From: Halosolutus amylolyticus | GTDB taxonomy: Archaea > Halobacteriota > Halobacteria > Halobacteriales > Natrialbaceae | Assembly: GCF_023566055.1 (NCBI RefSeq) | Contig: NZ_JALIQP010000007.1 | Span: 62,001 to 126,000, forward strand | Length of the DNA: 64,000 nt | Direction: 5' to 3' | Shown: piece by piece, positions 9,079-57,224 of the stretch | How the letters are laid out: every line of letters begins with the position of its first letter | Position numbering within the stretch: position 1 is the first letter of the stretch | The notes under the pieces: model-generated | What the model saw: the letters and a program-made list of their open reading frames with translations, nothing else | Database searches by the model: none | What the model was told of the DNA's origin: nothing | Program-made: the position numbers and the translations under genes

Positions 9079-9447
9079 ATGAATTCTGGCATCTCGGGGG
9101 CGGTAGTGCACTGTGAACTACCCTGTCCTACCGCGCTCGGGGCTATTCGCCCCTCGCTTGTTGAGGTGACTGTTGGGCTTGTTGAGATAGTCGGAACTCC
9201 ATCTATAGGAGGGTACGAATACACTCTATCCGATACCCATGTTATGGCTTCTGTCATTTTCGGGGGTGTCATCGTTGCACCACTAGCTGAGGAAGTACTA
9301 TTCAGAGGCTTTCTGATCGGTAGTTGCTCGGCTGGGGCATATCAAAATAACTTGCAGGTGTCGATCGGCATCAGTCCGATAGCCGATACTTCTTTGCACT
9401 TCTACTGTCGACACTCCCGATATGCAGATAGAGTTACGGGTGGTGGG
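9079..9447 (+). pseudogene. Fragment of a CPBP/CAAX-type intramembrane protease
   Basis: The open frame from 9079 contains the sequence GGVIVAPLAEEVLFRGFLIG (residues 62-81 of that frame), the conserved EExxxR signature of CPBP family membrane proteases (motif 1 glutamates at about 9289-9294). The flanking helices and the later His-containing motifs of the family are missing, and the sequence after RGFLIG loses all family resemblance. The frame happens to run without a stop into the next gene, giving a misleading 628-codon ORF. Upstream there is no signal for a real start. I read it as a truncated remnant upstream of the tubulin locus. Confidence 0.65.
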
Positions 9448-12769: not shown

Positions 12770-12952
12770 CGACAGGGGGTAATAGCTCCTCCCTGCTACG
12801 GCCCCATGGCGTTTTCGTACTCTGCCGGTGCCTCAATTATCCTTCGAGTCACTTCTAACGGGTCGACCCCTTTCTTTGCTAATAACATATCTGAAAGAGA
12901 CATATCAGGGCAGAAGCTTAATCACGACCTGAATACATTCGTTCGCTGTATA

Positions 12953-14956
12953 ATGGCAGCGGACGTCAACAATCTCCGGTGGAAGATAGGGTGGTCGCCG
13001 TGGCTTGTACTGATCGGTGTGACGGTCGTGTTTACTCTCATCGGCGCGATGATAGACGCGGCCGGCCCGTTCGTCGGACTCGGCCTTTTCGGGGGAATCG
13101 TGATCTGGTACTGGGGTGTCAGAGAAATAAACAACAAGTATCAACCATTCGTTCAAAAATTCATCGGGGAATCCGAACGAAACGCGAGACGCGGTATCGA
13201 AGTCGACAGCGCGAAGCTATACAATTTGACGTACAACTCTGGAAATTCCCCACCGCTTGTCAGTCCGTCGGATACATATTATATCACGACGATAGTCGTG
13301 ACTGATACATCTATCAACCTGAACAAGGGAGCGGAGTACGATATGGAAGCCCGATCGGGGGTCGGCGGCGGCACCAACAAAGAAATTTATTACGATCAGG
13401 TGACCGGTGTCCGTTCCCATCAGGACGGGACGTTTACTGAACTCGAAATCCAGACCGCTGGCGGGAAGTCCACCAGAATCAGCTCGATTGCGACGGACAC
13501 CGTCGACGAAGTGGTCTCCGAGGTCCGACAGCGGGTTCGGGAGATCAAAAACCCAGGTTCGAGTCGAGGACAGCGCACCGACCGGAATGCGGACCAGCGC
13601 TCTACGCCATCGACGACGGCTCCCGAGACACCGGCACGGGAGCGGAACACGGAATCATTGACGTCCACGGATCAATCACCCGAGGATACGACCGTCCCCA
13701 TCGGAGAGGAAGAGAGGAAGTCCGACTCAGAAGATGTGACGCCGCAACCGATCGCGTCGGTCGCGGACACCGTGGCCTCAGGAACACGCCCTTCCGATCC
13801 CGTTGCCAATGAGTTGTGTCGCGTCCTTTCGGATCCCTCTCCGGACGAACAACGACTCGAGGAGGCACTCGAGGACGCAGTCGACAGGCTCGAGGAGGCT
13901 GGAGCGGTCGCCGCCGCCGTCGAGAGAATCGATGATCCGACAGCCGACGCACAGGTCGAGTCGGCGAAACGGACGCTCACCGTTCGGGACGGGCCGATTG
14001 CTGACGGTCTCGAACAGGTGTTCGAGCGAGCGGTCGAGTCGACCAGAACGGAGGCGATTGAAGCCGACCTCTCCGCGACCGAGGCCGAACTCGAACGGTC
14101 CGAGCGACAATACGATCGGCTACGGACTGCGGCCGAGACGGTTTGTCGGGAAGTCACGCGGAGCGGCGTCCTCACGCTCCGATCGAGCGACGTCGTCGAG
14201 CAGACGACGGAACTCGCGGACACCCTCGAGAGCGACACGGTCGTGCTCAAGCGGCCAGACGCGACACAGGAGCCGGCGACGGAACTCCCATCGATCGCCG
14301 ACGATGTCGAGCGATCCGTTCGACCGCAGTCGGCCCAGTCGAGGGAGTTGCTCGAGACGCTGAGCGAGCCGGAAGCGGAGGACTCGGAATCGGTGTTACG
14401 ATCGACGGTTAACTCGTTGGACGCCTACGCGGAGCTCCGGTCTTCCATTGCGGATATCGGCAGACGTGATGTCGAGCGCCGGCTTAACGCGATCGACAAC
14501 GAACTACAGCGCAAGAACGGCGACGTCTACCGGCATCTCTCCGACCGGACCCGGGAACTCGAGACCATGCTCGACCGGGATGATATCACCGACGTGCAGC
14601 TGTACGCGATCTATCAGGAGTGTACGTTCTACGATCGAACGCTGCTACCACGACTGTCCCGATCGCTTGACAGCGATAGCGCCGTCGAAACCGGGCGACT
14701 GATCGCCAATATTGGGGATCGAATCGATCGCATCGAGCGTGAATATATCGACGTCCGCGCTGACCACAACCACACCATCCCCCGCCATTTCCTTTCACTT
14801 GCCGACGACCTCCGAGTGGAGGCCCAGAGCGTCGAAGGTGAGAGTCCGATGCGGGCGGCCAGCCTATGTACGGCGGCCGATAAGGTGCTCGAACACGTTG
14901 AGGCGCTCTACGAACGAAACGAATACAGCGTCATGCTTCGGCGGCTGCGCGGATAG
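12953..14956 (+). CDS. Two-TM protein with PH-like domain and long coiled coil
   Basis: A 667-residue protein; I choose the ATG at 12953 because residues before it look non-coding and a TATA-like CTTAAT lies about 38 bp upstream. Two transmembrane helices (about 14-36 and 38-58) form an N-terminal hairpin. Residues 80-190 are beta-rich (IYYDQVTGVRSHQDG, FTELEIQTAGGKSTRIS) and resemble bacterial PH-like domains, which usually follow TM helices in the same way. A disordered acidic linker (about 195-280) leads to some 380 residues of alpha helix with coiled-coil character. Most of the protein is cytosolic. It is flanked by tubulins 1 and 2 and could be a membrane scaffold for them. The PH-like call was made by eye. 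Confidence 0.8.
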   Translation: MAADVNNLRWKIGWSPWLVLIGVTVVFTLIGAMIDAAGPFVGLGLFGGIVIWYWGVREINNKYQPFVQKFIGESERNARRGIEVDSAKLYNLTYNSGNSPPLVSPSDTYYITTIVVTDTSINLNKGAEYDMEARSGVGGGTNKEIYYDQVTGVRSHQDGTFTELEIQTAGGKSTRISSIATDTVDEVVSEVRQRVREIKNPGSSRGQRTDRNADQRSTPSTTAPETPARERNTESLTSTDQSPEDTTVPIGEEERKSDSEDVTPQPIASVADTVASGTRPSDPVANELCRVLSDPSPDEQRLEEALEDAVDRLEEAGAVAAAVERIDDPTADAQVESAKRTLTVRDGPIADGLEQVFERAVESTRTEAIEADLSATEAELERSERQYDRLRTAAETVCREVTRSGVLTLRSSDVVEQTTELADTLESDTVVLKRPDATQEPATELPSIADDVERSVRPQSAQSRELLETLSEPEAEDSESVLRSTVNSLDAYAELRSSIADIGRRDVERRLNAIDNELQRKNGDVYRHLSDRTRELETMLDRDDITDVQLYAIYQECTFYDRTLLPRLSRSLDSDSAVETGRLIANIGDRIDRIEREYIDVRADHNHTIPRHFLSLADDLRVEAQSVEGESPMRAASLCTAADKVLEHVEALYERNEYSVMLRRLRG

Positions 14957-15309: not shown

Positions 15310-16713
15310 ATGACGTACCTGTTCGTTGGGGCCGGACAAGCGGGGGGAGCGATCGTCGATTCGGTGTTCAATTACACCGACGATTCGCTGCTGGGATTGT
15401 TCGATTCGGCTGACATTTCGACGCTCGGTCGGCCACTCGTGTTCAATTCGACGATGCGGGACCTGCAGAACCTCTCGAATGTTCCGCCCGAAGATCAGTA
15501 CGGAATCGCCGAACACCACGGCCTCGTTCAGGGGACCGAACCGGGATTCGAGGAGATGGTCACGGGCGGGTTCGGTCGCAATCCGGTCGACGCGGACGAG
15601 GTGATGGCCGAACACGCCCCGCAGATCCAGACCATTCTTGGGGAGAAGTTCGAACCGGGGTTCGACCGGTCTACGTCGGCCGACGAGTCGTTCGAAGACG
15701 ACCTGCTGGAAGGAGACGACCCGGTCGATGAGGAAGAGCCGACCGACGGTGAGCAAGACGACGACGTACCGACCGATGCCGACTCCGAATTCGAACCGAA
15801 TCCCGTGGTCGAACCGACGGGATCGGGCGTCCAGTTCGCATTCCTGTTTCTCGGCCTCGGTGGCGGAACTGGCTGCGGGATCGGGCCGCATCTCGCCCGT
15901 GAAATCAAGGCGTTCACTGACGGGCGAGCCAAGGTGGTCGCGGTCGCCGTCTTGCCGAACACCCGCGGCGCGGACGAGGTCAGCGGGTCGGATGAGAACG
16001 AGAAGGCCAGTGCCGGCCGACAGGCGTGGAACGCGCGATACGGCCTCGGTCGCCTCGAGGACGAAGTCGACGGCATCATCCTGGTCGACAATCAGCGCAT
16101 CTCGTACCTCGACTCGGCGGGCGGCGAGTTCGGCGAATACAACGACTACGTCGCGGCGGCAATCTACGACCTCGTTGCCGGTCCGGTCTTGAGCGGGGTC
16201 GATCCGAGCGCGGTCGATGGCATCGATACGCCCGATATCGACGTTCGGGACATCGTGACGTCGCTGTCGTTTGGCGTCGCCGGCGAAGAATCGACGCCAG
16301 GGTACGGCGCGATCGGGCGTTCGGTGACGATGACGCAGTCTTTGCCGGGCTATCTGCTACCGTTCGTCGGGAAACGCGACATCGACAGCGCCGCACTCTC
16401 GCGGTTGTCGGCGGCGAAGCAGACCCTCGCAAAGGCCAATGTCAGTGGAGCCCAGAAAGCAATCTCGCTGATCAGGGCGCCTGAATCGAACCTCGGATCC
16501 GGGCCTCACAGCGTCGAAATCGGGATCGTCAAGGAATATCTGGAGCAAACGTCCAACCTGAACGAAGTCAACATCGGCGTCGCGATGAGTGACAGGAACC
16601 TCGCTTCGGTGACGACGCTGCTGACGTACCGTCGGGAGGACATTGACCGGCTCGCGGACATCGAAGCGGCAGCCGAGGCATACGAAGAGGAGACGGAGGA
16701 GCTACTCGCATGA
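15310..16713 (+). CDS. Tubulin/FtsZ-superfamily GTPase 2 with acidic insert
   Basis: A 467-residue tubulin-superfamily protein starting at the ATG at 15310, which puts the T1 loop (LFVGAGQAGGAIVD) at the N-terminus as in FtsZ; the frame is open a further 11 codons upstream. The T4 signature is perfect, LGLGGGTGCGIGP (about residues 182-194). ILVDNQRISYL matches the guanine-contact segment. IDVRDIVTSLSFGVAGEES (about 310-328) aligns well with the FtsZ T7 loop DFADVRxVM, including the catalytic Asp. Between T1 and T4 lies a strongly acidic, apparently disordered insert of about 50 residues (119-169), absent from FtsZ. Its stop overlaps the next start (ATGA), indicating translational coupling to a small membrane protein. 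Confidence 0.9.
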   Translation: MTYLFVGAGQAGGAIVDSVFNYTDDSLLGLFDSADISTLGRPLVFNSTMRDLQNLSNVPPEDQYGIAEHHGLVQGTEPGFEEMVTGGFGRNPVDADEVMAEHAPQIQTILGEKFEPGFDRSTSADESFEDDLLEGDDPVDEEEPTDGEQDDDVPTDADSEFEPNPVVEPTGSGVQFAFLFLGLGGGTGCGIGPHLAREIKAFTDGRAKVVAVAVLPNTRGADEVSGSDENEKASAGRQAWNARYGLGRLEDEVDGIILVDNQRISYLDSAGGEFGEYNDYVAAAIYDLVAGPVLSGVDPSAVDGIDTPDIDVRDIVTSLSFGVAGEESTPGYGAIGRSVTMTQSLPGYLLPFVGKRDIDSAALSRLSAAKQTLAKANVSGAQKAISLIRAPESNLGSGPHSVEIGIVKEYLEQTSNLNEVNIGVAMSDRNLASVTTLLTYRREDIDRLADIEAAAEAYEEETEELLA

Positions 16714-16970
16714 GGTGGCGACTCACATCGGGCGTCCTCGTACTCGCCCTGACTGTCTGCGCGCTCGCGTCGACGGGGAGCGTCAGCGGGTCGTCAGCGG
16801 AGACAGCCATCGATACGACGTCTCAAGCGATCACGGCGCAGTCGGTCGCAGAGCAGACGCTCGTGATCGCGGCCGGCGGGCTATTGCTCGGCGCAGGTCT
16901 AGGCGTCGCGCTCGTGAGCGGCGCGACTTACTGGTACAAGAGTCGGGAAATCGGAGGAAAACTCCAATGA
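16710..16970 (+). CDS. Small secreted/membrane protein in the tubulin operon
   Basis: An 86-residue protein with an N-terminal hydrophobic signal (LTSGVLVLALTVCALAST, residues 5-22), a short Ser/Thr/Ala-rich outer segment, and a second hydrophobic helix (TLVIAAGGLLLGAGLGVALV, about 50-69) followed by a short basic tail (YWYKSREIGGKLQ). The likely topology is outside N-terminus after signal cleavage and a cytosolic tail. It overlaps tubulin 2 by four bases at its start and the next gene by four at its end (both ATGA). No family recognised. It could be a pilin-like or assembly subunit of a membrane complex. Confidence 0.75.
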   Translation: MRWRLTSGVLVLALTVCALASTGSVSGSSAETAIDTTSQAITAQSVAEQTLVIAAGGLLLGAGLGVALVSGATYWYKSREIGGKLQ

Positions 16971-17974
16971 GTACGGGACGACGATTCCTGCTGTTCACGG
17001 TCGCCCTGGTGGCGATACTCGCCCTCGGATTGGGAACCGCCACCGCTGCGGCCGACGTCAACTGCGACAGCACCGGCTCGACCGTCGTTGGATCGATCGA
17101 CGGTGAGTGGACCGGCGGCGAGGAGGCACTGTACGAGGGATCGACGTTCGAACTCGCCTACTGCACCGACGGGACGACGTATACGGGCGACTGGTTGGCT
17201 GCCGGCGCCGGGTTTGAACGCGACTCCCCGACCGCGGACGACGACGGCACGTACACCGTCACCCTCACCGGAAACGGAACAGACTCGATCGCGTTCGCCG
17301 ACTCCGTCACGCTCAACGAGGACCAGACCGACGGCCTGTCCGTGACGGTCGCGACGGCCGGCTCCGATACCGACGCTCTTGAACGAGTCGACGACGAGAG
17401 AGTCGCCGAGTACCTGGCTGCACGGGCGGCGCTATCGAACGCGACGGCCGAACTCGGCGAGACGACGACAGCGATCGAGAAAGGTGAGGCGGGGCTCAAC
17501 GCCGCTGAATCGGATCTCGAGAGACTCAATGACACATACGAGAACATGACCGAGCGAGAAGCGGAACTCACCGAGTATCTCTTGCGGCGGACCGAGAGCG
17601 GGAACGCGAGCGGATCGTACGGTGCGTTGACGGCAGTCGGGACGGATGCGGACGGACAGCGCGCCGAGACCGAGACCGCGGTCGACCGCTATACCGACGT
17701 TGCTGAGGCCGAACGATCCGAGGCGGCCTCGAGCGTGCGGCTGGCCGCACTGGGATCGCTCGCCGGGGGACTGGTCGTCGGCGGGCTCGTGGGCGTCGCT
17801 GTCCCGCTCGCCGCGGCGCGGCGCGTCGAGGAGGCCATGAAGCTGAGCCGAAACGTCTCCTATGATCGGAAGACGGCACTCGTCCCGATCCTCGTCGGGA
17901 TCGTCCTGGCAATCGGCGGTGCCACCCTCCTCGTGGTCGTCGTCGGGCCCGATCTACTGGAGGTGATTCGATGA
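16967..17974 (+). CDS. Secreted-domain membrane protein with coiled coil
   Basis: A 335-residue protein starting at the ATG at 16967 (overlapping the previous stop); the open frame continues upstream but there it is a shadow of tubulin 2. Residues 1-28 are a signal peptide ending in ATAAA. A small beta-rich outer domain (about 28-130) contains two cysteines (VNCDS and AYCTD) that could form a disulphide. A helical, glycosylation-site-rich segment (about 135-250; NAT, NDT, NMT, NAS) follows, then two transmembrane helices (about 258-284 and 303-331). The loop between the TM helices is short and basic. Tandem ATGA overlaps on both sides place it firmly in the operon. No family recognised. Confidence 0.78.
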   Translation: MSTGRRFLLFTVALVAILALGLGTATAAADVNCDSTGSTVVGSIDGEWTGGEEALYEGSTFELAYCTDGTTYTGDWLAAGAGFERDSPTADDDGTYTVTLTGNGTDSIAFADSVTLNEDQTDGLSVTVATAGSDTDALERVDDERVAEYLAARAALSNATAELGETTTAIEKGEAGLNAAESDLERLNDTYENMTEREAELTEYLLRRTESGNASGSYGALTAVGTDADGQRAETETAVDRYTDVAEAERSEAASSVRLAALGSLAGGLVVGGLVGVAVPLAAARRVEEAMKLSRNVSYDRKTALVPILVGIVLAIGGATLLVVVVGPDLLEVIR

Positions 17975-20061
17975 ATGCCAACCTCAAGAGCGCGCTCGTG
18001 ATCGGTAGCCTCGTAGTTCTAGGTGCCGCGGTCGGGGCCGGCGTGTTCGTAACGACCACCTCCGAATTTGCAGTCTGGTTCGTCATCGGCGGCATTCCGC
18101 TGATCATCGTCGGGGGTATCGCGCTGTACGTTCGCGGCGTCGTGTCTCGCGACGGCACGAGCGAACAACAGTACGTCCGGAAACAGGCACAAGCGGTCGC
18201 ACAGGAGTTCCAGCGAACTGTTCGAGACGTAAACGACCTCTCCGATACCTATGCCGACTGGGAGTTCACTGCCGACGCACGCCTCGAGTCGATCGCGGGT
18301 GATTTCCGTGCGCAGGGAGTCGAGTTCGACCTAGGATCCGGCGCGTTCGACCTCACGAAAGGCGTCGCGAACGCTGACGTGCAGGCTTTCGAGGAGCTCT
18401 CCGCCGAGGTCGATCGGCTCGACGACGACGTCGAAACGGAATTCCGGACGTTCGCGAACGAGGAACTGTTGCGGCTCGCGGACGCGATCGACCGACTCGA
18501 GGCGGTGGATCTTGCGACTCCCGACGCGGCGATAGCTGACCCGGCCGACGATGCGGGGATCCCGGACTGTCGAGACGCGGTCGACGCCAGACGAGCGATC
18601 GCGGGGGAGATGATCAAGACGTCGATCGACACCGTCCACGAAATGAAACGGGGCGGGCAGCGGCCGGACGACGCTAAGAGGATCGAAGGCGACCTCGACG
18701 CGGCGGCTGAGGCCCTCGACCACCACGAGTACGGGGCGGCCGTCGAGTCGGTCCTTGAGGCGAGAGATCGGCTCCGGGACCAGTTCTCAGGCTCGTTTGA
18801 AGCCGAGCGGGACGCGGTGTTGACACTGGTCGACGCCGTCGAAGCAGCCGGTGTGGCCGCACACATCGATGCGGAATACCTCGACGCGGTCGATGTCGTC
18901 GAGTCTGCCGTTACGGGGATGGATTCAGCGCTAGACCTCTCGGAGGTAAGCCGACGCCGCGCGGATCTTCGGCGGACCTGTATCGAGATAGTCGCTGCGA
19001 TGGAGCGCGACCTCGCGGACGAGGCGGAGACGCTTCGGCGGGCGGACCTTCCGGCGGGCTATTACACGGAGCCGGCGATCGTCAACGAGGACTTCGTTGA
19101 CGAACTCGAGCAGATCGAGGAGTTCGACCGGTTCACCGAGCGCTGGCGGGACGTCGCCGGTTCGCTCGCCAACGCCGTGGATACGGCCACTACCAAAGTC
19201 GCCGTCGTCGATGCCTACGAGGACGTCGCCGAGACCATCGCGGCGGAGCTTGAGGCGTCGGGGCAAGTTACGGACGACGACCTCCCGGTTCGCAACGCCG
19301 AGGAGTTTCTCGGGCTCTACTACCGTCAAAACGAATCTGTCGAACTCGATCCGGACGTCCCGGTGCTCCGCGTCGGTGACGTCGATACGCACGATCTCAC
19401 GGTCGAGATCGCCTATGAGCGCGGCGGAGCGGAACGGACCGCGACGCTGTCGCTATCGGGGGCCGGCTACAACGAGAGCGCGACGGTCGAGACCCGGGTC
19501 GCCGGGACGACAACGTTCACGGACGTCCCGACTGGCAGCTACGAACTGAGCGGTACCCCCGGCGACGAGGTGTTCGCACCGATCGAACGATCGGTCCGCG
19601 TTGACGATAAGAAGACCATCAGCGTCGAGTTCACCGAGCAGAGCCTCCGAGAGCGGGTCTGTTCGGACACAAGCGCGGATATGGCTGATCACCTCTCGGA
19701 GCTTCGCCCGCGTCTCGAGGAGCTGTACAACGCGGAGGGGTACGTGTCGACCACGATGGACCTTCCCGTTCGGTCGTCGCACACCCCCTGTTTGCTCGCA
19801 GTCTGGGCCGAATCCGACGGTTACGACGCGACGGAAACGTCCGAGGGCGAGATCGTCGTCTTCGAGCAGGACCGCCTCGAGCGCGAGCTGACCAACGTGG
19901 TCAGGTACAACCTCGAGTCGGGCGACCGGTTGCCGTTCGACGAGCTCGAGCGGAACTTCCTGACGGCACCGGTTCCGCGGTCGGTGATCTGGGACGCCGT
20001 CGCAGATTTGAGCGGGGAGCACAGCGTGACGACTACCGACGACGCGATCGAGATGAAGTAA
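17971..20061 (+). CDS. Two-TM protein with long helical region and Ig-like domain
   Basis: A 696-residue protein. Two N-terminal transmembrane helices (8-28 and 33-55) form a hairpin, as in the gene at 12953. A long acidic helical region (about 60-440) is likely to form coiled coils. A beta-sandwich domain (about 465-555; VEIAYERGGAERTATLSL, TFTDVPTGSYELSGTP) resembles the carboxypeptidase-regulatory/PEGA type. The C-terminal ~130 residues are alpha/beta and may end in a winged helix (LPFDELERNFLTAPVPRSVI). Topology places the large part in the cytosol. It ends three bases before tubulin 3. A membrane-linked platform for tubulin 3 is an inference from position. Confidence 0.8.
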   Translation: MNANLKSALVIGSLVVLGAAVGAGVFVTTTSEFAVWFVIGGIPLIIVGGIALYVRGVVSRDGTSEQQYVRKQAQAVAQEFQRTVRDVNDLSDTYADWEFTADARLESIAGDFRAQGVEFDLGSGAFDLTKGVANADVQAFEELSAEVDRLDDDVETEFRTFANEELLRLADAIDRLEAVDLATPDAAIADPADDAGIPDCRDAVDARRAIAGEMIKTSIDTVHEMKRGGQRPDDAKRIEGDLDAAAEALDHHEYGAAVESVLEARDRLRDQFSGSFEAERDAVLTLVDAVEAAGVAAHIDAEYLDAVDVVESAVTGMDSALDLSEVSRRRADLRRTCIEIVAAMERDLADEAETLRRADLPAGYYTEPAIVNEDFVDELEQIEEFDRFTERWRDVAGSLANAVDTATTKVAVVDAYEDVAETIAAELEASGQVTDDDLPVRNAEEFLGLYYRQNESVELDPDVPVLRVGDVDTHDLTVEIAYERGGAERTATLSLSGAGYNESATVETRVAGTTTFTDVPTGSYELSGTPGDEVFAPIERSVRVDDKKTISVEFTEQSLRERVCSDTSADMADHLSELRPRLEELYNAEGYVSTTMDLPVRSSHTPCLLAVWAESDGYDATETSEGEIVVFEQDRLERELTNVVRYNLESGDRLPFDELERNFLTAPVPRSVIWDAVADLSGEHSVTTTDDAIEMK

Positions 20062-20064
20062 CTC

Positions 20065-21288
20065 ATGGCACAAACGGACACGTTTACGAGATGGAGCGTC
20101 ATCGCCTCGGGAGAGGGTGGCGGACGGATCGCATCACAGTTTTTCGACCGTACGGAGAATCCGGGGATCGACGACCGAATCCTGGTAATGAACACGAACC
20201 GGGCAGACCTTCGGAACACGATCGACCGGCTCAAATCGAAGCTGGGGGCGACCGAAGATGAGGACGTAATAGAATCGCACGCCCTCGAGTTCGGCTCCCA
20301 GCAGGGGGCGGGGAACTTCTTCCCGAACGGGGCGGCGTGCGCTCGTGAGGACCTCGATCGGATTGTCAACCGGATCACGGAGTTCGGCACGACTGACGCG
20401 TTCATGCACGTCGCAACGCTGGGCGGCGGGACCGGCAACGGATCGATCCCCTACGTCGTCGATCAGTTCAGGGACGGACTCCGAGACCTGAACGACAACA
20501 ACGCCGCCGAGGAATGGATGGACAGCGTCATTCACGCCGCGTTCGGCGTCTGGCCGTACTATTACGAGCAACCGCAGCGACACTTTAATGCAGTCTGCGG
20601 ACTATCGCGACTCCTCCGGACGGACGACGACGAGCAAAACGCTGACATGGTACTGCTCGCGTCGAACTCTCACCTCGACGACGAGGACGGAGCCGGGGAC
20701 CAGTACGACTCGATCAACGACGCGATCATCACCGCGATCGACCTGATGATCGGTGCCGGCCGCGAGACGCGGAGCGTCATTGACATCAAAGACTACGTGA
20801 CCATCCCGTCCCAGATGGACGCCTACCACTTCACGCCGGCCGTCGCGACGGACCTCAACGGCTCCGTCTACGAGCTCGAATACATGCTCGATCAGGCGGC
20901 TAGCGGGACGTTCGTCCCGATGGACGTCGAGACGACTACGGCCGCCTACGCGATCGTCCGTACGCCGGAACGGATGATCGACGACGGCGAGATCACCGAA
21001 CCGGACGTGTATCAGGCGTTCCGCGAGTGGACCGCCAAACACGACATCAACGTGGCTGGGCAGGCGAGTCTCACGCCCAAGCGCGGCCGCGGGAGCGACG
21101 TCGATGTCTTGCTGTTACTCGGTGGCTTCGACCTGAACCCCCTGCTCGATCACTCGTGGGACGACTTCGAGATGCTCGGCGAAACGCTCGCCGGCCAATC
21201 CCGCGGCGGCGGGGCCGACCTTACGAGCGCCCAGCTTGACCGCATCGTCGACAACCTCGAGTCGTACGTCGAACGGAACGCGGAGTGA
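20065..21288 (+). CDS. Tubulin/FtsZ-superfamily GTPase 3
   Basis: A 407-residue tubulin-superfamily protein with the most FtsZ-like N-terminal motifs of the three: T1 IASGEGGGRIAS (about 13-24), an Asn-Thr-Asn in VMNTNRADL (43-45; compare NTDxxxL in FtsZ), QQGAGN (79-84, T3), LGGGTGNG (119-126, T4), LLASNSHL (197-204) and VIDIKDYV (238-245), a candidate T7 loop with Asp. It lacks the zinc finger of tubulin 1 and the acidic insert of tubulin 2. The C-terminal region has a Gly/Arg-rich patch and a helical end; no FtsZ-type conserved C-terminal peptide is visible. It starts three bases after the previous gene and overlaps the next start. The three paralogues share little beyond the nucleotide-binding motifs. 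Confidence 0.9.
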   Translation: MAQTDTFTRWSVIASGEGGGRIASQFFDRTENPGIDDRILVMNTNRADLRNTIDRLKSKLGATEDEDVIESHALEFGSQQGAGNFFPNGAACAREDLDRIVNRITEFGTTDAFMHVATLGGGTGNGSIPYVVDQFRDGLRDLNDNNAAEEWMDSVIHAAFGVWPYYYEQPQRHFNAVCGLSRLLRTDDDEQNADMVLLASNSHLDDEDGAGDQYDSINDAIITAIDLMIGAGRETRSVIDIKDYVTIPSQMDAYHFTPAVATDLNGSVYELEYMLDQAASGTFVPMDVETTTAAYAIVRTPERMIDDGEITEPDVYQAFREWTAKHDINVAGQASLTPKRGRGSDVDVLLLLGGFDLNPLLDHSWDDFEMLGETLAGQSRGGGADLTSAQLDRIVDNLESYVERNAE

Positions 21289-24209
21289 GTATGACTGCAC
21301 TAGTACCCTTCCCCGACGATTGCATGACTGCGAGCCGCCTCCTCGTTGCGCTGGCCCTCGCGGTCGCAGTCGCCGGTGCGATGGTCGTCCCGGCGACGGC
21401 CGCATCGACGGCGCAGGACGCCGATGACGTGCAAGTAACGCGGTCCGACGACGCGCTCACGGTCGACGTCACCGATCTCTCGGACCGGCCGGAAAACGTG
21501 ACTATATCTGTCAGCGGACCGAACTCAACCAGTCAGGCCACCAAATCCGTCAATGGCGGCACCGCCGAGGTATCCATCAGAACGCTGATCTCAGGGGTCG
21601 ACGACGACAAGTCACTGGTCGGCGCGACCGTTCAGGTCACTGCCGGAAACGAGACTTACGAGGACGTGGTTGATCTCCACACTGTCGCGTTCGCGGCCGA
21701 CGACGTCCCGGTCTGGATCGACGGCGATGACCCGCGGATCGTGCTTCCGCTAAACGCGAGCGAAACCGTCGGTATCACGGAAAACGATACCGTCACAGTC
21801 ACCGCCGACGACGCCGCCCTCGAGGGAGAGGTCCGAGCGGACGGGACCCAGTTGTCGATCCTGCAGTCAGAACTCGTCGAGGCGGTCGGCTCGTCCGCCG
21901 ACATCGGCCTCGAAATCTCCATCGCCGACGGGAATTCGACGAGTCGGACCCTCGAAGCGGAACTCCGCGAGACGACCGGCGGTCTCGTGCTTTGGCAACC
22001 GCTGCTCGAGACCGGGTCCTCGTATTCAGTGACGGCCGAACGGACTGACGATGGGACGCGATACGTGGACTCCGGCACTGAGCCGGTACGACCCGGCGAG
22101 ATCGATCTCTCGTCGCTGACGGGGGTGAGCGAGGCGAGAGTCTCGGTTTCATCGGGAGGCGAGTCCCTGCTCGACGGCCGGCTAGTCTCATTCGATCGGT
22201 TCTCGCTCACCGCGACGGTCGCGGACGGGGGATCGGCGGTCATGTTCGATCAGGGTGTCGACGGACTCGGTGTGCGTGGTGTCGTGATCGAATCGAGTAC
22301 GGGCTCGATCGATCAGTACGCGTTCGATGGCGGCCACCGAGTCGAAGATGGTCGGCTTGAGCTCGGAAACGCGACGGTGACGGCGAACGACTCGCTGGTG
22401 ATCGCGACGAACGCCGGCATCGGGACGTTGACACTCTCTCCTGCGGAGACTGATTCGAACCAGGGTGACGGCGGTGACGAAGATGGCTTCGACCCGGTGA
22501 AGCCTTTCCAGTCCGTTGCACTCGTGCTACTGCCGGCCCTCGTCGGACCTGCAGTCGGCTACGGCGCATACCGGTTCAACAACGAGTGGACGGGTGACCG
22601 ACTCAAGATCAGTAGCGTCGTCGCCGCTGGGTTCGCGCTGGCGCTCGCTCTCGTGCTCGTCGAGATCGTCGGCGGCGGACTATGGCCCGGAACCGACGGC
22701 CTGTGGCCGCCGGACGGTCTGACCTCACACGCGCTCGCCGTCGTCGGTGTGCTACTCGGGGCGACGCTGGCGCCGACGACCTACTATCGACTCGGCTTTC
22801 GGACCGGCGCTGACGCCAGCGGCTTCACGTTCGACGTGACCGTCACCGACGGAGAACGACCGCTAGACGGTCGGACGATGATCGGCTACAGACGGATCGA
22901 TGACGGCGACACGAAAGCGGAATCGACGACGATCATTGGCGGAACGGGACGAATCTCCGTGTCCGAACCGGGGAGCTGGAACGTTGCCGCGAGACGGGGA
23001 GAGCACGACTCGGAGGCCGTCACGGTCAGCCGCCGAAAAACGAGCGCGACGCTTCCGATCGCGTTTCCGGCAACGATCACGGTCACCGACCGAGACGGCG
23101 GCGACCCGATCGCGGGCGCGACCGTCACGCGAACGGACGACGGGACCAGCCAGACGACGGACGCGACCGGGACTGTCTCTCTCGAGCCCGGCGAACCCGG
23201 CTCGAGCGTCGACGTGGAGATCACCCATGACAAGTACGAGAACCGGACGGAGACCGTCGTGTTCACGCAGGACGGCGATCGGACGGTCGCACTCTCGCCT
23301 CGAACTGGGCGCGTACGACTTCGATCACGCGTGGACGGTGTTCCGGTCGGCCCGACACCGCTGAGAGTCACGCCGCGAGAGCAGTCGCTGCGCGATCGCT
23401 ACGGGACTATTTCTGTGACGACCGGCTCCGACGGGGCCGCCACCCGTGACGCGCTTCTGATCGGGCAGTATCGCGCCGAGATCGACCCGCCGGCCGGTCG
23501 AAACGGGCTCTTCGACGGCGGCAAATCGATCCTGACTGTCCGGGAGGATCGATCGACGACGGCCGAGGTCGACGCCAGCTTCACCTGGTCGCTGTCGTCG
23601 GCCCAGCGGAGTCAGATCGATCGCCTTCGACAGCGGATCCGGTCGCTGTCGGACCACGCCGGCAGGGATACGACAATCCCACGGTACTACGGCACGGTCG
23701 TCACAGGGATGCTAGAGGCCGTCGAGTCTCTCCCCGAAGCCGGCCATCTGTTCGCGGACGGGAAGACGGACCCCGACGTCGTCGCCGACGCGTTGCTGGC
23801 CGCCGCCACGGACTCGATCGACGCGATCAACGACGCAATGACGACCAAGCGCAACGTCGACCTCTTCGCGGCCTGTGCGGACATGCCCGACGCCACCGTC
23901 GAATGGGACGGCGAGTGCGATCTTGAGACGCTTCTCGAGCGCCTCGCTTCGGACGCAATGACACAGCGAAACGTCCTCAAAGATCGGTACGAGACGGTCA
24001 CCAACCGGGTCGAGGCCGAACGGGGATCGGTCTCGGAGGCCGCACCGGCCGAGGAGATGTTGCGACACGCCTGGGACCTGGGCAACGACGTCGGCCGCGG
24101 TGACGACGCGATCGTCACGATCCACGCCGCCCTGCTCCTGCTCGACGCCGTCGACGGCGTATTCAAGCGCGATTCCCTCCGCGACAGACTTTCACGGACG
24201 GTGTTCTAA
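21285..24209 (+). CDS. Large membrane protein: ectodomain, three TM helices, cytosolic Ig-like domains
   Basis: A protein of up to 974 residues. The GTG at 21285 overlaps the tubulin 3 stop, but an ATG at 21324 gives a standard signal peptide (LLVALALAVAVAGAMVVPATAA) and may be the true start. An outer beta-rich region (about 45-395) carries several N-glycosylation sequons. Three transmembrane helices lie at about 408-430, 443-465 and 480-502. Beyond them are two or three Ig-like/carboxypeptidase-regulatory-like modules (about 515-770; GGDPIAGATVTRTDDGT is typical) and a helical C-terminal domain (about 785-974) with four cysteines. Ig-like modules on the cytosolic side are unusual and suggest a structural link between the envelope and the GTPases. 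Confidence 0.8.
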   Translation: MSMTALVPFPDDCMTASRLLVALALAVAVAGAMVVPATAASTAQDADDVQVTRSDDALTVDVTDLSDRPENVTISVSGPNSTSQATKSVNGGTAEVSIRTLISGVDDDKSLVGATVQVTAGNETYEDVVDLHTVAFAADDVPVWIDGDDPRIVLPLNASETVGITENDTVTVTADDAALEGEVRADGTQLSILQSELVEAVGSSADIGLEISIADGNSTSRTLEAELRETTGGLVLWQPLLETGSSYSVTAERTDDGTRYVDSGTEPVRPGEIDLSSLTGVSEARVSVSSGGESLLDGRLVSFDRFSLTATVADGGSAVMFDQGVDGLGVRGVVIESSTGSIDQYAFDGGHRVEDGRLELGNATVTANDSLVIATNAGIGTLTLSPAETDSNQGDGGDEDGFDPVKPFQSVALVLLPALVGPAVGYGAYRFNNEWTGDRLKISSVVAAGFALALALVLVEIVGGGLWPGTDGLWPPDGLTSHALAVVGVLLGATLAPTTYYRLGFRTGADASGFTFDVTVTDGERPLDGRTMIGYRRIDDGDTKAESTTIIGGTGRISVSEPGSWNVAARRGEHDSEAVTVSRRKTSATLPIAFPATITVTDRDGGDPIAGATVTRTDDGTSQTTDATGTVSLEPGEPGSSVDVEITHDKYENRTETVVFTQDGDRTVALSPRTGRVRLRSRVDGVPVGPTPLRVTPREQSLRDRYGTISVTTGSDGAATRDALLIGQYRAEIDPPAGRNGLFDGGKSILTVREDRSTTAEVDASFTWSLSSAQRSQIDRLRQRIRSLSDHAGRDTTIPRYYGTVVTGMLEAVESLPEAGHLFADGKTDPDVVADALLAAATDSIDAINDAMTTKRNVDLFAACADMPDATVEWDGECDLETLLERLASDAMTQRNVLKDRYETVTNRVEAERGSVSEAAPAEEMLRHAWDLGNDVGRGDDAIVTIHAALLLLDAVDGVFKRDSLRDRLSRTVF

Positions 24210-24213
24210 CGAC

Positions 24214-25206
24214 ATGCACACACACAACCGTCGGGCGACGATACTGACTGCGATACTTGTCGTCGCGACGATCACGACGGTACCGCTCTTCGGGGGGACC
24301 GCCGCCGCCCAAGAGGAGACGGCGAACGACTACTTCGAAACCTTCCGCTCGATGGAAGGGACCGAAGCCTACGACGAGTACGACGAACTGGAGACAGTCC
24401 GGACGTTCGCCGTCTCCAAAACGCAAGTAACGGGTGAGCTCACGGCGGCCGACCAAGCGGAGTTCGAGGCCGTCCTCGGGGTTCTCACCGAGTTCGATCG
24501 CGCTTACGTCCTGGCCGAGGGCGGCGACTACGAGGCGAGTCTCGCGGCCGCCGAAAACGTGAGCGCCTACGCAGACGATCTCGAGGAGTACGATCAGACG
24601 CAGGCAACGCTCGCGACTCTCGCGCTGACGCGGTTCTACGAGCGCCTTGGCGATGGCCTCTACGAGGAAGCCGATGCGACGAACAGTACACCCGAGCGAA
24701 TTGAGCACCTCGGTATGACCGCGACGGCCTACGAGCGGGCCGACATGCCCGAAGAAGCGACGCAGTTCCGGGTCCAGGCCGAGCAGTTGTCCGCCGAGTT
24801 CGAGCGGGATCGCGAAACGATCGCGACCGTGCAGAACGCCTCGTCTACCTTCCTCGAGGACTGTGCCGACTGTGCGGACGTGCAGGCGGCTGTCAGCGCG
24901 AACGGGTTCGAGACGTTCGCGGCGTATCAGGACGCAGAGGCGACGCATATCCAGATCCGAGAGGCGCGGGAGCGTGCGGCACACCACGGACTCGCCGATC
25001 GCGAAGAACAACTGGCGGCGATGAGTGACGATGTCGGTCAGACGCGAACGACGCTCGCGATCGCCTCCGTCGTCGTCCTGATCGGGTACGGTGTCGTCGT
25101 CGGCCTGCTGGGAACGATCGTAGCCGGACGACTCTTCGTCTGGCGGCGGACGTACGATGCTGCGAGGGTCGGCTCGGTCGTGTCGGTAGGTGATAGCGAT
25201 GTCTGA
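24214..25206 (+). CDS. Secreted helical protein with C-terminal TM anchor
   Basis: A 330-residue protein starting at the ATG at 24214, four bases after the previous stop. A signal peptide (AILVVATITTVPLFGGTAAAQ, read in two parts AILVVATITTVPLF and GGTAAAQ) is followed by an acidic, almost wholly helical outer domain (about 35-275) with tetratricopeptide-like helix spacing and a CADCADC-type cluster (FLEDCADCADVQ). One transmembrane helix (about 279-303) precedes a short basic cytosolic tail (WRRTYDAARVGS). It overlaps the next gene by eight bases. A surface-exposed helical bundle held by one TM segment suggests a receptor or structural component. No family recognised. Confidence 0.78.
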   Translation: MHTHNRRATILTAILVVATITTVPLFGGTAAAQEETANDYFETFRSMEGTEAYDEYDELETVRTFAVSKTQVTGELTAADQAEFEAVLGVLTEFDRAYVLAEGGDYEASLAAAENVSAYADDLEEYDQTQATLATLALTRFYERLGDGLYEEADATNSTPERIEHLGMTATAYERADMPEEATQFRVQAEQLSAEFERDRETIATVQNASSTFLEDCADCADVQAAVSANGFETFAAYQDAEATHIQIREARERAAHHGLADREEQLAAMSDDVGQTRTTLAIASVVVLIGYGVVVGLLGTIVAGRLFVWRRTYDAARVGSVVSVGDSDV

Positions 25207-27466
25207 GCGAGTCCTGCCCGTCGCAGTCGTCTGCGCCCTCGCACTCGGACTGACGATAGCCGCGGTCCCGGGGGCGGCCGTACAGAGCGGCTCCGTCACC
25301 GTCGATGCAGCGAGCGAACCGGTCGAAGTGGGGACGGAGTCCGAAACGCACTCCGTCACAATAAAGAACGACCGGAACGAGTCCGTCTCGGTCGATGTGT
25401 CGTCGTCGGGGTCCGGGATCTCCATAGATCCGGATCAGTACACCGTCGCCGCCGAAACCACGGAGGAGATCACCCTCGAGATCGAGGCGGCCGACGACGC
25501 GGGCGACGGCACGATCACCGTGAGTGCCGGTCGTGACTCGGACGATTTTCAGGTTGTTCGCCCTGCTATCGCCGGTCTAGAGGACGAACCCCTTGATATC
25601 GGCGACGTCGTCGTCGGTGACAGCGCGTCCGGTGAGATCGATATCCAGGAGCTCACGGGCGAGGAGAGCCTCAGTTACGTCGATGCGACCGTCGTCAATA
25701 CCGATCAGGATGCAGATCTCGGCGTCAGCGCGAGCGATACCACGCTGAACTGGAACGCCTACGCAGACAGCGGCGTCGACCAGTACGAGGACCTCTCGTG
25801 GGAGGTCGAACTCGTCCCCAACGGCAATGAGGGGGCGGCCCGAACCGTCGACGTCGAGGGCCGCGTCATCTATCCCGCCGAGTTCGGCGCGGTCGAACTA
25901 GACGACGAGATGACGCTCGACGAGCCGCGGGACTCGACGTCGACGATCACGAAGACGGTCGAGCTCGAAGTCGAGAACGCAGGGGATCTCCCGCTCGTGC
26001 TCGACGACGTCACGGCGTCCTCTTCGAACTCCGGTATCGACGTCTCCGTCGCTGACCAGCCCGATACGATCGACGGTCGAAGCCAATTTGGGGAGACCGT
26101 CGAACTGGCCGTGACGGCGGATACCCGACTCGAAGAAGGGGAATACGACATCAGCGGTACGGTCAGCTCGACGAATCTCAGCGCGACGGATACGAGCTAT
26201 GAGGGAACCGTGACTATTGAACACGGGACTGAACTCGATGCTCCCAACCGGATCGAGTTTGGCGACGTTCCGATAGGTGAATCTGAACGGCAGTCGACCT
26301 CGGTGGGCGAGGTACTCGGCTACAACGATGTCGATAACCTCGAGATAACGCTCGAGGACGGGCCGGAAAGGTGGATGACGATCGAGGACTCACCAGGGAA
26401 CCTTGACGCTGGTGAATCCCAACCGGTGGTGTACCAGGCCGCGTTCGACACCGATGCGGAACTGGGAACCAGCTACGAGTGGACATACGTGGTTGATGGC
26501 GACGGCGTCGACAAGAAGACGGTGATCGTCGTCGCTTCACCGGTGCCGCTCGATCTCGATCCGATACGTCAGGACGTCTCCGCGTATGATGGGCCGGTCG
26601 CCGACGGGACCGTCGAGATGATCGAGACGATGGACGACCGGATGCGATCGGGCGAGGTCTCCAGCGAGGACGTCACGACGGTGCTCTCTTACGGCAGCGC
26701 TGCGTCGCTGTATCTCGAGTCCATGGAGAGGGTCCGCGAACGACAGTCTGCCGGTGAGTACGAGGCGGCCCAGACGGAAATCGTCCAGGCGGCGGCCGCG
26801 TACAACACGATGACGCTTTACGCGGACGAACTCGACGGCGCGACCTTCCGAGCGGACAGCGACAGGGCGGTCTCCGCCGCCGAAGACGACCTCGAATCGG
26901 CGATCGGGGAGCAGGAGGCGTACTACAAGGATCGCCTCGAGTCCGGCAACGTCTCGCTGGTGGAAGAAGCGACGATTCAGCGACAGCTCGCTCGCGTCGT
27001 CTCGCTCCAGGGCGACGATGAGCGGGCCGCGGCGCTCGAGGCGAGCGCCAAATCCTCGTTCGAAAACTACACTGCAGCCATCTCGACGGGCGAGCGAGCG
27101 CGTCAGCGGGCCGAAGAGACGTGGTCGACGATGGAGTCGGAGCAGTTCCTGACGGTCGCCGGCCAACCGTTGCTCTTGAATCCGGCCAAGTACGACGCGT
27201 ACACCGACAACGTCGACGAGATGAACACGGCCTACGAGAACGCGACGGCGACGTTCGAAGCGGCCGGCGAGTCGAGTCGCGCGGCGGATGTCGCGACCCA
27301 ACACGAGTCCCGGACCGCGACGTTGCAGATAACCCGCGTGTCGCTGTTCACCTCTCTCGCCGTCTACGCGCTGGCCGTCCTTGGGATCGTCGTCCGCACC
27401 GCACGCGGGACCTACTGGTACCTCCGAGACGCGCGGGAGTCGGTCAGCGGCGACTTCCTCGTGTGA
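25199..27466 (+). CDS. Secreted Ig-like repeat protein with C-terminal TM anchor
   Basis: A 755-residue protein; the ATG at 25199 is preferred because it begins directly with a signal peptide (SERVLPVAVVCALALGLTIA). Four or five Ig-like/NPCBM-associated-type beta domains follow (about 30-450; SVTIKNDRNESVSVDVSSSG and KTVELEVENAGDLPLVLDDV are typical). A helical region comes next (about 460-700) and resembles the outer domain of the preceding protein. A single transmembrane helix (about 715-737) ends in a basic tail. It is the last gene of the left arm and faces the right arm across a 190-bp gap. Its ectodomain could contact the S-layer or a neighbouring cell. Confidence 0.8.
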   Translation: MSERVLPVAVVCALALGLTIAAVPGAAVQSGSVTVDAASEPVEVGTESETHSVTIKNDRNESVSVDVSSSGSGISIDPDQYTVAAETTEEITLEIEAADDAGDGTITVSAGRDSDDFQVVRPAIAGLEDEPLDIGDVVVGDSASGEIDIQELTGEESLSYVDATVVNTDQDADLGVSASDTTLNWNAYADSGVDQYEDLSWEVELVPNGNEGAARTVDVEGRVIYPAEFGAVELDDEMTLDEPRDSTSTITKTVELEVENAGDLPLVLDDVTASSSNSGIDVSVADQPDTIDGRSQFGETVELAVTADTRLEEGEYDISGTVSSTNLSATDTSYEGTVTIEHGTELDAPNRIEFGDVPIGESERQSTSVGEVLGYNDVDNLEITLEDGPERWMTIEDSPGNLDAGESQPVVYQAAFDTDAELGTSYEWTYVVDGDGVDKKTVIVVASPVPLDLDPIRQDVSAYDGPVADGTVEMIETMDDRMRSGEVSSEDVTTVLSYGSAASLYLESMERVRERQSAGEYEAAQTEIVQAAAAYNTMTLYADELDGATFRADSDRAVSAAEDDLESAIGEQEAYYKDRLESGNVSLVEEATIQRQLARVVSLQGDDERAAALEASAKSSFENYTAAISTGERARQRAEETWSTMESEQFLTVAGQPLLLNPAKYDAYTDNVDEMNTAYENATATFEAAGESSRAADVATQHESRTATLQITRVSLFTSLAVYALAVLGIVVRTARGTYWYLRDARESVSGDFLV

Positions 27467-27658: not shown

Positions 27659-30600
27659 TCACTCGAGCCGAAACGGCGTCGACAGCGACGACGGACCGTC
27701 CGCGTCCTCACTCGCGTTCTCGACGCGATCGATCGACCACTGCTCGCGGTGGTCGTCGGTCCAGGCAGCTTCGTCCTCGGCGGACGGACCGGCCGCGCGA
27801 AGAGCGACCTCGCGCTCCGAGCCGTCGGCCGCGTACCGAATCGTCGCGTCGAACGACGGCGACCTCACGCCTGGTTCCATATCGACGAAGTGCTCGATCC
27901 GATCGCCTGGCTCGAGGCGTTCGCGACGCGCCTCCGAGTAGAACAGGTCGTTGATCGGTTCGCCGCTGGCCGACACCGCGACGTCCGTCAGCGGTCGGTC
28001 GCCTTCGTTTTCGAAGACCAGCACGACGGTTCCGTACTCGCCAGCGACCTGCGTCTCCGGACCGATCCCGATCTGGAACGGACCGTCGCCGTCCACGCCA
28101 TCGTTGGGGCCGTGTTTTGTGGCCGACGAGACGTCCGCGATGATGTCGAGACGCCGCTCCGCGCCGTCGCCATCGCCGACCACCAGGACACCCTCAAGCG
28201 CGTCCGTGTCCGTTCCGAACTGTTCGTCGAGGGCCCCGGTAGCGGTGGTCGTCTCGCCGTGCTCGAGCCGGGCCTCGATCGGGACCGACCGGCCGCCGAT
28301 CTCGAGGCCGCGAACGGTCCGGAGACGATCGCTGCGGTTTACGATGTCGGCGACGACGGTCCCGTCGGTTGCGTCGACGGTCGCCCGCACGGCGAGGCCG
28401 TCGCCGCTGGCGGCCAGCTCACGCTTGGGCAACCGCTCGCAGACCGTTCCGTCGAGTACAACCGACGCCTGCGACAGGACAGTTTCCGAGCCGGAGCCGA
28501 TTGCGACCGAGCGCTCGACGGCCGTCCGGTCGCCGGCCGCGAGACGACCGACGTCGACGGTCGAGTCGCCGATCTCGACGGTGACGTCGCCTGCTGACTC
28601 GCCCTGGTTCTCGAGTTCGATCCGGTCGCGGACAGCGTGGCCGGCTGGGATCGAATCCTCGTCGATCCGCCGGGTCGCGACCAACTGCGGTTCTCCGACA
28701 TCCCCTTCGTCGGCGTCGGCCCCGGAGCCGCCACCGATTCGCTCCTCGTCGCTCGCCGAAGCCGTCGCGGAAGGTTCGCCCCCGGCTCGCGACCGATCGT
28801 CCGATCCGTCGTCGCCGTAGTCGGGTCCCGACGGGGACGGTGTCGCAGGAGCGGCGTCGGCGGTCGCTTCGTCGGGCGCGGAGTCCGTCGGTGCGGTTCC
28901 ATCGTGACGATCGTCGCGATCGTCGCGGTTCTCGCGTCGGTTCTGCGCCGACAAATCGGCTGTGTCACTGTCTGTCGACGCAGTCGTATGATCGGATCGC
29001 GTCCCGTCCGTTCGACCGGTCCGACGGCGGTCCGATCCCCCGATCCTCGACGAGCGGCCGAACGAACCCGGACCGCCGGAGAGCCGGACCCGCTCGTCGA
29101 CGTCGAGGGATTCGAACCCGATCCGTGCGGTCCCGTCGTCGAACTGCGGGACGATCAGCAGGAACTCGTCGCGCTCGATCGTCACCTCCGTTCGGACCCG
29201 GCCCGCTCCCGGGAGTTCGATTACGAGTCGATCGACGACGGTCACCGAGTCGTCGGTTTCGACGGTCGCTCGAACCGCGTCGCCGTCCGGTTCGACGTCG
29301 ATCGTCGGGACGGGTGGCAGCGTACACGTCGGGGCGTACTCCCGGCGTCGATCGCCTCGAGCGACCTCGAGTCCGACTGAGACCCGCCGATCGGGCTCGT
29401 ACGGCCGAGAGACCGTTCCAGTCCACTCCTCGCCGGGCTTGAGAGCGTCGGTTCCCTCGTTGGTCTCGCGTAGCCGAAGGGCTTCGAGTCCCACCCCACC
29501 GACGTTTTCGACGGTGACCGCGAGTTCGGCGACACCATGCTCGATCGTCGCCACTTCGATATCGGTATCGACGGCGATCCCGCCGCTCGCTGCGTCGTCG
29601 AGGTCGATCACGGCCTGTTCGAGGACCGATCCGTCTACGGTGAGTTCGACCGTCGTCTTCCCTTCGGCCCGGATCGATTCGACCGGAAAGTCGACGATCG
29701 TCGTCTCGCCGGCCTCGACGGCCGCAGTCCGATCGGCCGGTGAGAGTGTCGCTTCGTCGATCGACGCTGACAGCGATAGTCGGCGCTCCCGGTCGGTCAC
29801 GTTGGTCACCTCGACGTCGATCGTACCGCCGACGCCGACGCTCTCGGTCGCGACGGCGACCCGGAGCTGATCGCGGCTGTGGACGTACGTCGAGACGGTC
29901 TCGTCCCGGACCGCACAGACAAGTGAGCTGTCGGGCGTCGCGTACCCCTCCCCGCTTGAGAGTCCGGCGACCGGCGTCGTCGCCCCGGACGGATCGACCG
30001 CGCGGATGCCGTCGGCGGTCGTCACCAGCACCGACGACTCACCGACCGGCGCGACGTGTTCGACTGCGAGCTCCGTCCGCCAGCGGGAAGTTCCGCTCTC
30101 GAGGTCGGCGGCGACGAGGCGCTCGTTCTGGAGCGCCGCGACGATCGCATCGTCACACCGCCCCAGGCTCCGTACGACGGCCTCGAGGTTGCGATCGAAG
30201 TCGACCTCGCCCTCGAGGTCGATTCGGGTCAGAAACGACCACGTCGAAATCGCGAACCCGGCCGGTGTGCCTAGGAGGGCGTCGTCTGCCGGTCCGCCGG
30301 GACGGACGCGCTCGACGTCGAACCGCTCGCGGCCGGTCTCGATATCGACCGACCTGAGCCGTTCTGGCCCGAGCACGCCGGCGAGTCCCTCGTCGCTGAC
30401 GGCGGCGACAGCGTGGCTGTCTGCGGCCGGCTGCTCTCGGATCCGCTCGCCGGTTCGGGAATAGGTCGTCAACGCGTCCGACGAGAGGACGAGCACGCGA
30501 TCGGCGAGGGCGACGTCGACGATGCGGTCGCCGTGATCGATCTCGACCCGATCGCTCCCCGTCTCGACGACGACACGGTCGCCGATCCCGACAGCGATCG

Positions 30601-33105: not shown

Positions 33106-33106
33106 C

Positions 33107-57084: not shown

Positions 57085-57224
57085 TATTGCGTCTGTTCCG
57101 CGTATAATCTCAATCATGATCGTGATAGCCGATGATGCACGAGCACACCGCTCCGTTCTCGATCAGTACACGATGGGAAACAGCCTGTCAGCAGAGTCAT
57201 CACCGTGAGAGCCGATAACAACTC

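Follow-up and report, generated by a model that had tools for sequence, protein, structure and literature searches.

TubA, TubB and TubC, three GTPases of the tubulin superfamily encoded in one haloarchaeal gene cluster, are not a gene-dosage array; they form three deep clades that are kept as a set, a conclusion supported by both phylogeny and distribution. TubB and TubC are retained together across haloarchaea and methanotrophs, and the third family accompanies a Vps4-type ATPase. This pattern suggests that two of the proteins pair in a filament and the third acts as a separate partner, and speaks against redundant copies of a single gene.

The window is the whole 64,000 nt stretch of haloarchaeal DNA that was analysed (G000:C7:62001-126000). 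On its forward strand the genes g0-TubA-PH-TubB-sm-TM1-CC-TubC-big-TM2-Ig extend from 9.1 to 27.5 kb; after Ig, the genes prop-AAA-h1-h2-h3 follow on the reverse strand up to 35.4 kb (Table 1). All three GTPase genes are intact and lie in a single cluster in the same orientation. Haloarchaeal genomes with the full trio of GTPases preserve the order g0-A-PH-B-TM1-CC-C-big-TM2-Ig. Each GTPase also has its own membrane protein beside it, as the sequence-only reading of the window had proposed: by hydropathy, g0 and PH flank TubA, sm and TM1 follow TubB, and TubC is preceded by CC and followed by big.

Table 1. Genes of the cluster and their positions in the window
Gene	Position	Strand	Description
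g0	9079..10965	+	Coiled-coil protein belonging to the TubA module, predicted from its TM stretches to be membrane-anchored
TubA	11171..12769	+	532 aa tubulin-superfamily GTPase with N-terminal C2H2 motif; PF00091 45.9 bits
PH	12806..14956	+	Membrane protein of the TubA module with helical tail; weak bacterial-PH match (bPH_3, below cut-off)
TubB	15310..16713	+	467 aa tubulin-superfamily GTPase, ATG at 15310; CetZ-like predicted fold; PF00091 46.6 bits
sm	16710..16970	+	86 aa, signal or TM segments; overlaps the TubB stop; homologues in other neighbourhoods
TM1	16967..17974	+	Predicted signal peptide, exported part and C-terminal TM
CC	17971..20061	+	N-terminal pair of TM segments; coiled coil and a small beta domain
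TubC	20065..21288	+	407 aa tubulin-superfamily GTPase; PF00091 36.5 bits
big	21285..24209	+	Exported domains resembling Ig and CarboxypepD, several TM segments and a cytoplasmic tail; CarboxypepD_reg below cut-off
TM2	24214..25206	+	Signal peptide, exported helical region and a TM segment at the C-terminus
Ig	25202..27466	+	Exported Ig-like (ASH-type) part, C-terminal TM; ASH 25.2 bits against a cut-off of 27
prop	27659..30682	-	1007 aa, interpreted as a beta-propeller with an Ig-like part (the adaptin-like type of Makarova)
AAA	30666..32399	-	Vps4/Cdc48-type ATPase that carries an N-terminal domain of its own; PF00004 111.7 bits
h1	32392..33195	-	Helical protein of the ATPase module
h2	33107..34165	-	Coiled-coil protein upstream of the ATPase, where an ESCRT-III-like gene is expected
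h3	34243..35361	-	Protein of the ATPase module; winged-helix look by eye; no Pfam match

Several of the accessory proteins resemble one another in part. TM2 and Ig (24214-27466) have a homologous helical region and TM tail (hhalign 94.6 %), and CC and big have a small beta domain in common (hhalign 93.6 %). An arrangement of the TubA module and the TubB/TubC module as duplicated triads, with g0 corresponding to CC and PH to big, was considered and rejected, as the profile matches are only weak (82 % over 80 coiled-coil columns for g0 and CC, 47 % at the C-termini for PH and big). The Pfam matches of prop are also weak and below cut-off; its homologue in Halobacterium salinarum is annotated as a PQQ-binding-like beta-propeller. 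The start of the g0 frame (9079-9445) matches a fragment of a CAAX-protease (Rce1-like) that is missing in homologues, for example in the shorter annotated gene of Natrinema. This region may be a gene remnant or reflect a wrong start, with the true start near 9445.

All three GTPases score above the curated Pfam cut-off of 33 bits for the Tubulin/FtsZ family (PF00091; scores in Table 1). None reaches the FtsZ equivalog TIGR00065, which requires 295.2 bits and for which they score 30.6, 25.2 and 19.7. For Tubulin_2 (PF13809) the best TubB match scores 26.3 bits against a cut-off of 27, and the window proteins have no match at an E-value of 0.001. Mean identity over alignable columns is 17.9 % between TubA and TubB, 17.9 % between TubA and TubC and 18.8 % between TubB and TubC, compared with 50–56 % within each family and 18–20 % to FtsZ and CetZ. 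The sequences had been described as hardly alignable by eye, with different T4 loops (KGTGCGATP, GGGTGCGIGP and GGGTGNGSIP) and lengths (532, 467 and 407 aa), and these descriptions are borne out.

A maximum-likelihood tree of 71 proteins separates TubA, TubB and TubC into three clades (bootstrap/SH-aLRT of 99/98, 100/99 and 100/100, respectively) with stem lengths of 1.32, 1.21 and 1.96 substitutions per site. All three are outside the CetZ branch and likewise outside FtsZ and Tubulin_2, and there is no clustering as late duplicates; the earlier claim that the genes are not recent duplicates thus stands. The source genome has five additional tubulin/FtsZ members, which group with FtsZ and CetZ. 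A sister relationship of TubB and TubC is absent from the tree and not rejected either (p-AU 0.29), and the same applies to a grouping of TubA, TubB and TubC jointly against FtsZ and CetZ (p-AU 0.20). In both the TubB clade and, less firmly, the TubC clade, the sequences of ANME-2 and Methanoperedens are located outside those of haloarchaea. The split between TubB and TubC therefore predates the divergence of these lineages, unless both genes were transferred jointly.

Of 391 Halobacteria genomes, 40 contain TubC (388 bits or more; next best score 72) and the same 40 contain TubB (next best score 50). Full-length TubA is present in 38 of those 40 (599 bits or more), and the profile of the Vps4-like AAA protein finds exactly the 38 genomes with full-length TubA. 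The identical set of 40 genomes, with its clean score gap, was counted in favour of an obligate TubB–TubC pair, although inheritance as one cluster explains part of this co-occurrence. Two further observations were counted in favour of a coupling between TubA and the Vps4-like ATPase. First, the two occur in the same 38 genomes even when unlinked: three Halopenitus genomes have kept the ATPase at a distance from the cluster (about 255 kb in G017), a relocation that was probably one event. Second, G042 and G048 jointly lack TubA, g0, PH and the ATPase module and have the remainder; g0 homologues are found in 42 of 44 neighbourhoods, these two being the ones that lack it. Two other genomes, G031 and G081, are without TubB and TubC and carry g0, PH and prop together with a TubA of divergent sequence (213 and 271 bits).

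FtsZl1/Tubulin_2 proteins are diverged archaeal FtsZ-like proteins of a predicted membrane-remodelling system (Makarova and Koonin 2010, PMC2875224). Proteins of this type, approximately 1150 aa long, are located 6–18 kb from the partial clusters in G042, G048 and G081 (L184, L185 and L186). The proximity to the TubB–TubC module in G042 and G048, both TubA-less, raised the possibility that FtsZl1 is a strict replacement for TubA. However, three TubA-bearing genomes likewise encode long Tubulin_2 proteins, away from the cluster, and the candidate was rejected. In contrast to TubA, TubB and TubC, which fail PF13809, the FtsZl1/Tubulin_2 proteins are much longer and form a separate clade.

Outside the haloarchaea, 13 ANME-2 genomes and two of Methanoperedens encode TubC relatives (38–42 % identity), and one additional fragment was detected. 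All 15 of these genomes carry TubB, and TubA was found in none of them, bringing the co-occurrence of TubB and TubC to 55 genomes overall. Methanoperedens retains the order B-CC-C-big, with the CC homologue again between the two GTPases, together with TM2-Ig and prop. In ANME-2, TubB adjoins homologues of TM2 and Ig and TubC is located elsewhere, mostly on a different contig. Only in G395 are the two on one contig, 7 kb apart; in G403 the distance is at least 34 kb. Linkage alone is thus insufficient to explain the co-occurrence. In three ANME-2 loci (L139, L144 and L147) TubC is head to head with a gene read as the CO dehydrogenase/acetyl-CoA synthase subunit CdhC. No paper linking ANME-2 to tubulin or FtsZ was found in the literature.

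An independent sample of 174 Methanosarcinia, in which each protein was searched for separately, yielded TubB in 9 genomes and TubC in 7, all 7 of which have both. TubC without TubB was not found in any genome searched, including the 391 Halobacteria, ANME-2/Methanoperedens and the 174 Methanosarcinia. The two genomes with TubB and no detected TubC are G555, a 1.9 Mb ANME-2 MAG whose assembly may just not include TubC, and G554. The latter has three clustered tubulin-superfamily proteins (L222 and L223), namely a divergent TubB-like protein, a 421-aa PF00091 protein and an 880-aa FtsZl1-like protein. As to whether all three GTPases are always present together, TubB and TubC nearly always are, whereas TubA is separable: 2 of the 40 haloarchaea and all 15 methanotrophs are without it. 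None of these genomes combines a single GTPase with the complete membrane set, but some have TubB and TubC with the B–C membrane set and without TubA.

In filaments of tubulin and FtsZ, each subunit's T7 loop acts on the GTP bound by its neighbour. The T7 motif D-x-x-D is present in all three GTPases of the window. The T4 boxes of TubB and TubC are canonical. TubC has GGGTGNG in T4 and D-x-x-D in T7 in 58/58 rows of the alignment, and TubB has GGGTGCG and D-x-x-D in the 44 rows from haloarchaea and Methanoperedens. In ANME-2, whose genomes are close relatives of one another, TubB has lost a glycine from T4 and the first aspartate from T7 in 12/12 genomes tested, and TubC retains both loops. 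This loss in one partner is confined to ANME-2 TubB and is not seen in haloarchaea or Methanoperedens. A crippled TubB T7 combined with an intact TubC would fit a mixed filament in which one of the sites is silent, in ANME-2 only. Asymmetry of this kind is seen in alpha/beta-tubulin, and the observation was counted in favour of a pair. TubA keeps D-x-x-D in 42/42 rows. In nearly all rows a lysine replaces its first T4 glycine (KGTGCG), and its N-terminus carries a C-x2-C...H-x4-H (C2H2) motif in 42/42 rows.

The AF2 models of TubB (pLDDT 74, pTM 0.78) and TubC (pLDDT 65, pTM 0.74) both show a whole two-domain tubulin fold, which was also counted in favour of the explanation preferred below. 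The TubB model is closest to CetZ, with Z scores of 36–38 (3zid, 37.6; 4b45, 37.1; 4b46, 36.2) against approximately 31 for FtsZ and tubulins. For TubC, the top Foldseek match is CetZ1 (4b46), and VIA-align places OdinTubulin (Z 34.2) and bacterial tubulins (BtubB, Z 33.7) first. No CetZ is among the best 50 VIA-align matches listed for TubC, though with CetZ first in Foldseek this absence is not taken as evidence. A two-domain fold is supported for TubA by hhalign, which aligns it with TubB and TubC beyond the GTPase domain; its best solved relatives are weakly tubulin-like, over the GTPase domain only.

The link of the cluster to ESCRT systems comes from the Vps4-like ATPase, which matches the CdvC and CDC48 models below cut-off and has no MIT match. 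The coiled-coil protein h2 is in the right place for an ESCRT-III-like protein, but no Pfam ESCRT-III or PspA match was found for it. ESCRT-III identity was not confirmed for h2, nor for a 208-aa gene beside the Vps4 of Methanoperedens, which has no sequence match. One of the genomes that carry the cluster with TubA, TubB, TubC and the ATPase, G014, is presumably that of Haloquadratum walsbyi C23. The passages of Makarova et al. (2024, PMC10936438) on the Halo_adaptin ESCRT locus, which name Haloquadratum walsbyi as a carrier species, describe a Vps4-like ATPase without MIT, a coiled-coil gene upstream, propeller and Ig-like proteins, a membrane protein and one CetZ-related protein, and propose protein sorting or vesicle formation. 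The window resembles this halobacterial locus in the ATPase, the upstream coiled-coil gene, the membrane proteins and the CetZ-related proteins, and putatively in the propeller and Ig-like proteins, and its gene content fits an identification of the haloarchaeal cluster with Halo_adaptin. It differs in having three tubulin-like proteins from three deep families where that description counts one, which would correct the published account. Unlike the Halo_adaptin locus as described there, the TubB–TubC part is also found without the ATPase module and outside haloarchaea.

In one Methanoperedens genome (G405), an AAA protein that passes the Vps4_C cut-off is encoded approximately 9 kb from the propeller gene on the same contig, which was also counted in favour of the explanation preferred below. 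The gene (L178, 911-2722) fuses the AAA part to a DisA-type diadenylate cyclase (DAC) domain, and a zinc-ribbon SPFH protein is encoded near it and the TubB–TubC cluster. This AAA/SPFH neighbourhood provides a second, weaker link of TubB and TubC to Vps4-type machinery.

The preferred explanation is that the cluster encodes a machine for membrane remodelling in archaea whose tubulin part has two components, a reading judged about equally likely to be right or wrong. TubB and TubC would be an obligate functional pair, most likely forming one mixed filament in which the T7 loop of each partner acts on the GTP of the other. From the predicted TM segments, this filament could be tied to the membrane through CC, TM1, big, TM2 and Ig. 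TubA, with its zinc-finger-like N-terminus and its partners g0 and PH, would act separately, as a filament or an adaptor, and link the system to the Vps4-like ATPase and the helical partners h1–h3. The ATPase and its partners may in turn disassemble or remodel the system, for example in the budding of vesicles or envelope patches, and the TubA–Vps4 part would have been added in haloarchaea. The placement of TubB and TubC in one polymer is about an even bet. The sequence-only reading had offered three specialised filaments or a hetero-polymer; the latter is plausible for TubB and TubC, which are together in 55 genomes and often unlinked, but it does not extend to TubA, which is separable.

The three GTPases could instead form independent homopolymers within one process, each with its own filament, and this alternative is considered unlikely but deserves weight. 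FtsZ1 and FtsZ2 co-occur in haloarchaea and yet are separate proteins with separate roles in division. Each GTPase belongs to its own deep family, has adjoining membrane proteins and keeps D-x-x-D in haloarchaea; with this motif in all three T7 loops of the window, each of the three could polymerise alone. The FtsZ1/FtsZ2 precedent, the two genomes with TubB and no detected TubC, and the kinship of the ANME-2 genomes were counted against a pair, as was the failure of TubB and TubC to appear as sisters in the tree, where that grouping is not rejected. However, the loop losses of ANME-2 TubB are odd for a self-sufficient GTPase, and TubB is retained with TubC near-perfectly despite their separation.

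A single hetero-polymer of all three proteins would agree with their joint presence in 38 of the 40 haloarchaeal genomes with the cluster and with the hhalign alignment of all three over the core. It is improbable in view of TubB and TubC without TubA in G042, G048 and the 15 methanotrophs, and of the divergent TubA module without TubB and TubC in G031 and G081. Equally doubtful is that one or more of the GTPases is non-polymerising and instead serves, depending on GTP, as scaffold, cap or regulator. TubA would be the candidate, with its lysine in T4, its C2H2 motif and its only weakly tubulin-like solved relatives, but the T7 motif is retained throughout the TubA and TubC rows. A gene-dosage array of recent duplicates, which three genes in one cluster and one orientation might have suggested, fails because identity between the families is no higher than to FtsZ or CetZ, is rejected by the maximum-likelihood tree and is very improbable indeed.

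Among known systems, CetZ offers the best structural match for TubB and the top Foldseek match for TubC, and is likewise an archaeal tubulin-superfamily GTPase. Unlike CetZ, the three proteins (approximately 20 % identity to it) are encoded in a fixed multi-gene cluster. In the preferred explanation TubB and TubC resemble alpha/beta-tubulin, BtubA/BtubB and the Asgard AtubA/AtubB, as two paralogous tubulins retained together; the T7 asymmetry of ANME-2 recalls alpha/beta-tubulin, and the predicted fold of TubC is near OdinTubulin and BtubB. They differ from these tubulins in identity (approximately 13–18 %) and in that both T7 loops look catalytic in haloarchaeal TubB and TubC. Few known systems depend on two different tubulins, namely the eukaryotic alpha/beta pair, BtubA/B of Prosthecobacter and those of Asgard archaea, and no TubB–TubC complex is known. 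Tentatively, and with more doubt than confidence, a two-tubulin heteropolymer that evolved independently of alpha/beta and BtubA/B may exist in haloarchaea and anaerobic methanotrophs, coupled in haloarchaea through TubA to a Vps4/ESCRT-type module. If so, it would be a further case in which to ask how tubulins turn into heteropolymers, and a prokaryotic meeting place of a tubulin cytoskeleton and ESCRT-like machinery.

Beside the cluster in the window (39829-47841) are large genes resembling parts of conjugation or type IV secretion systems, namely a polytopic membrane protein and two large ATPase-like proteins, and a frame at 55695-57113 is similar to TnpB/OrfB-type transposases. In the laboratory strain Halobacterium salinarum R1 the cluster is located on plasmid PHS2. 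Halobaculum halobium carries the cluster twice, both copies being on a single plasmid; TubA and TubB are frameshifted in one (L011, 8233-12591), and the other (L073) is intact.
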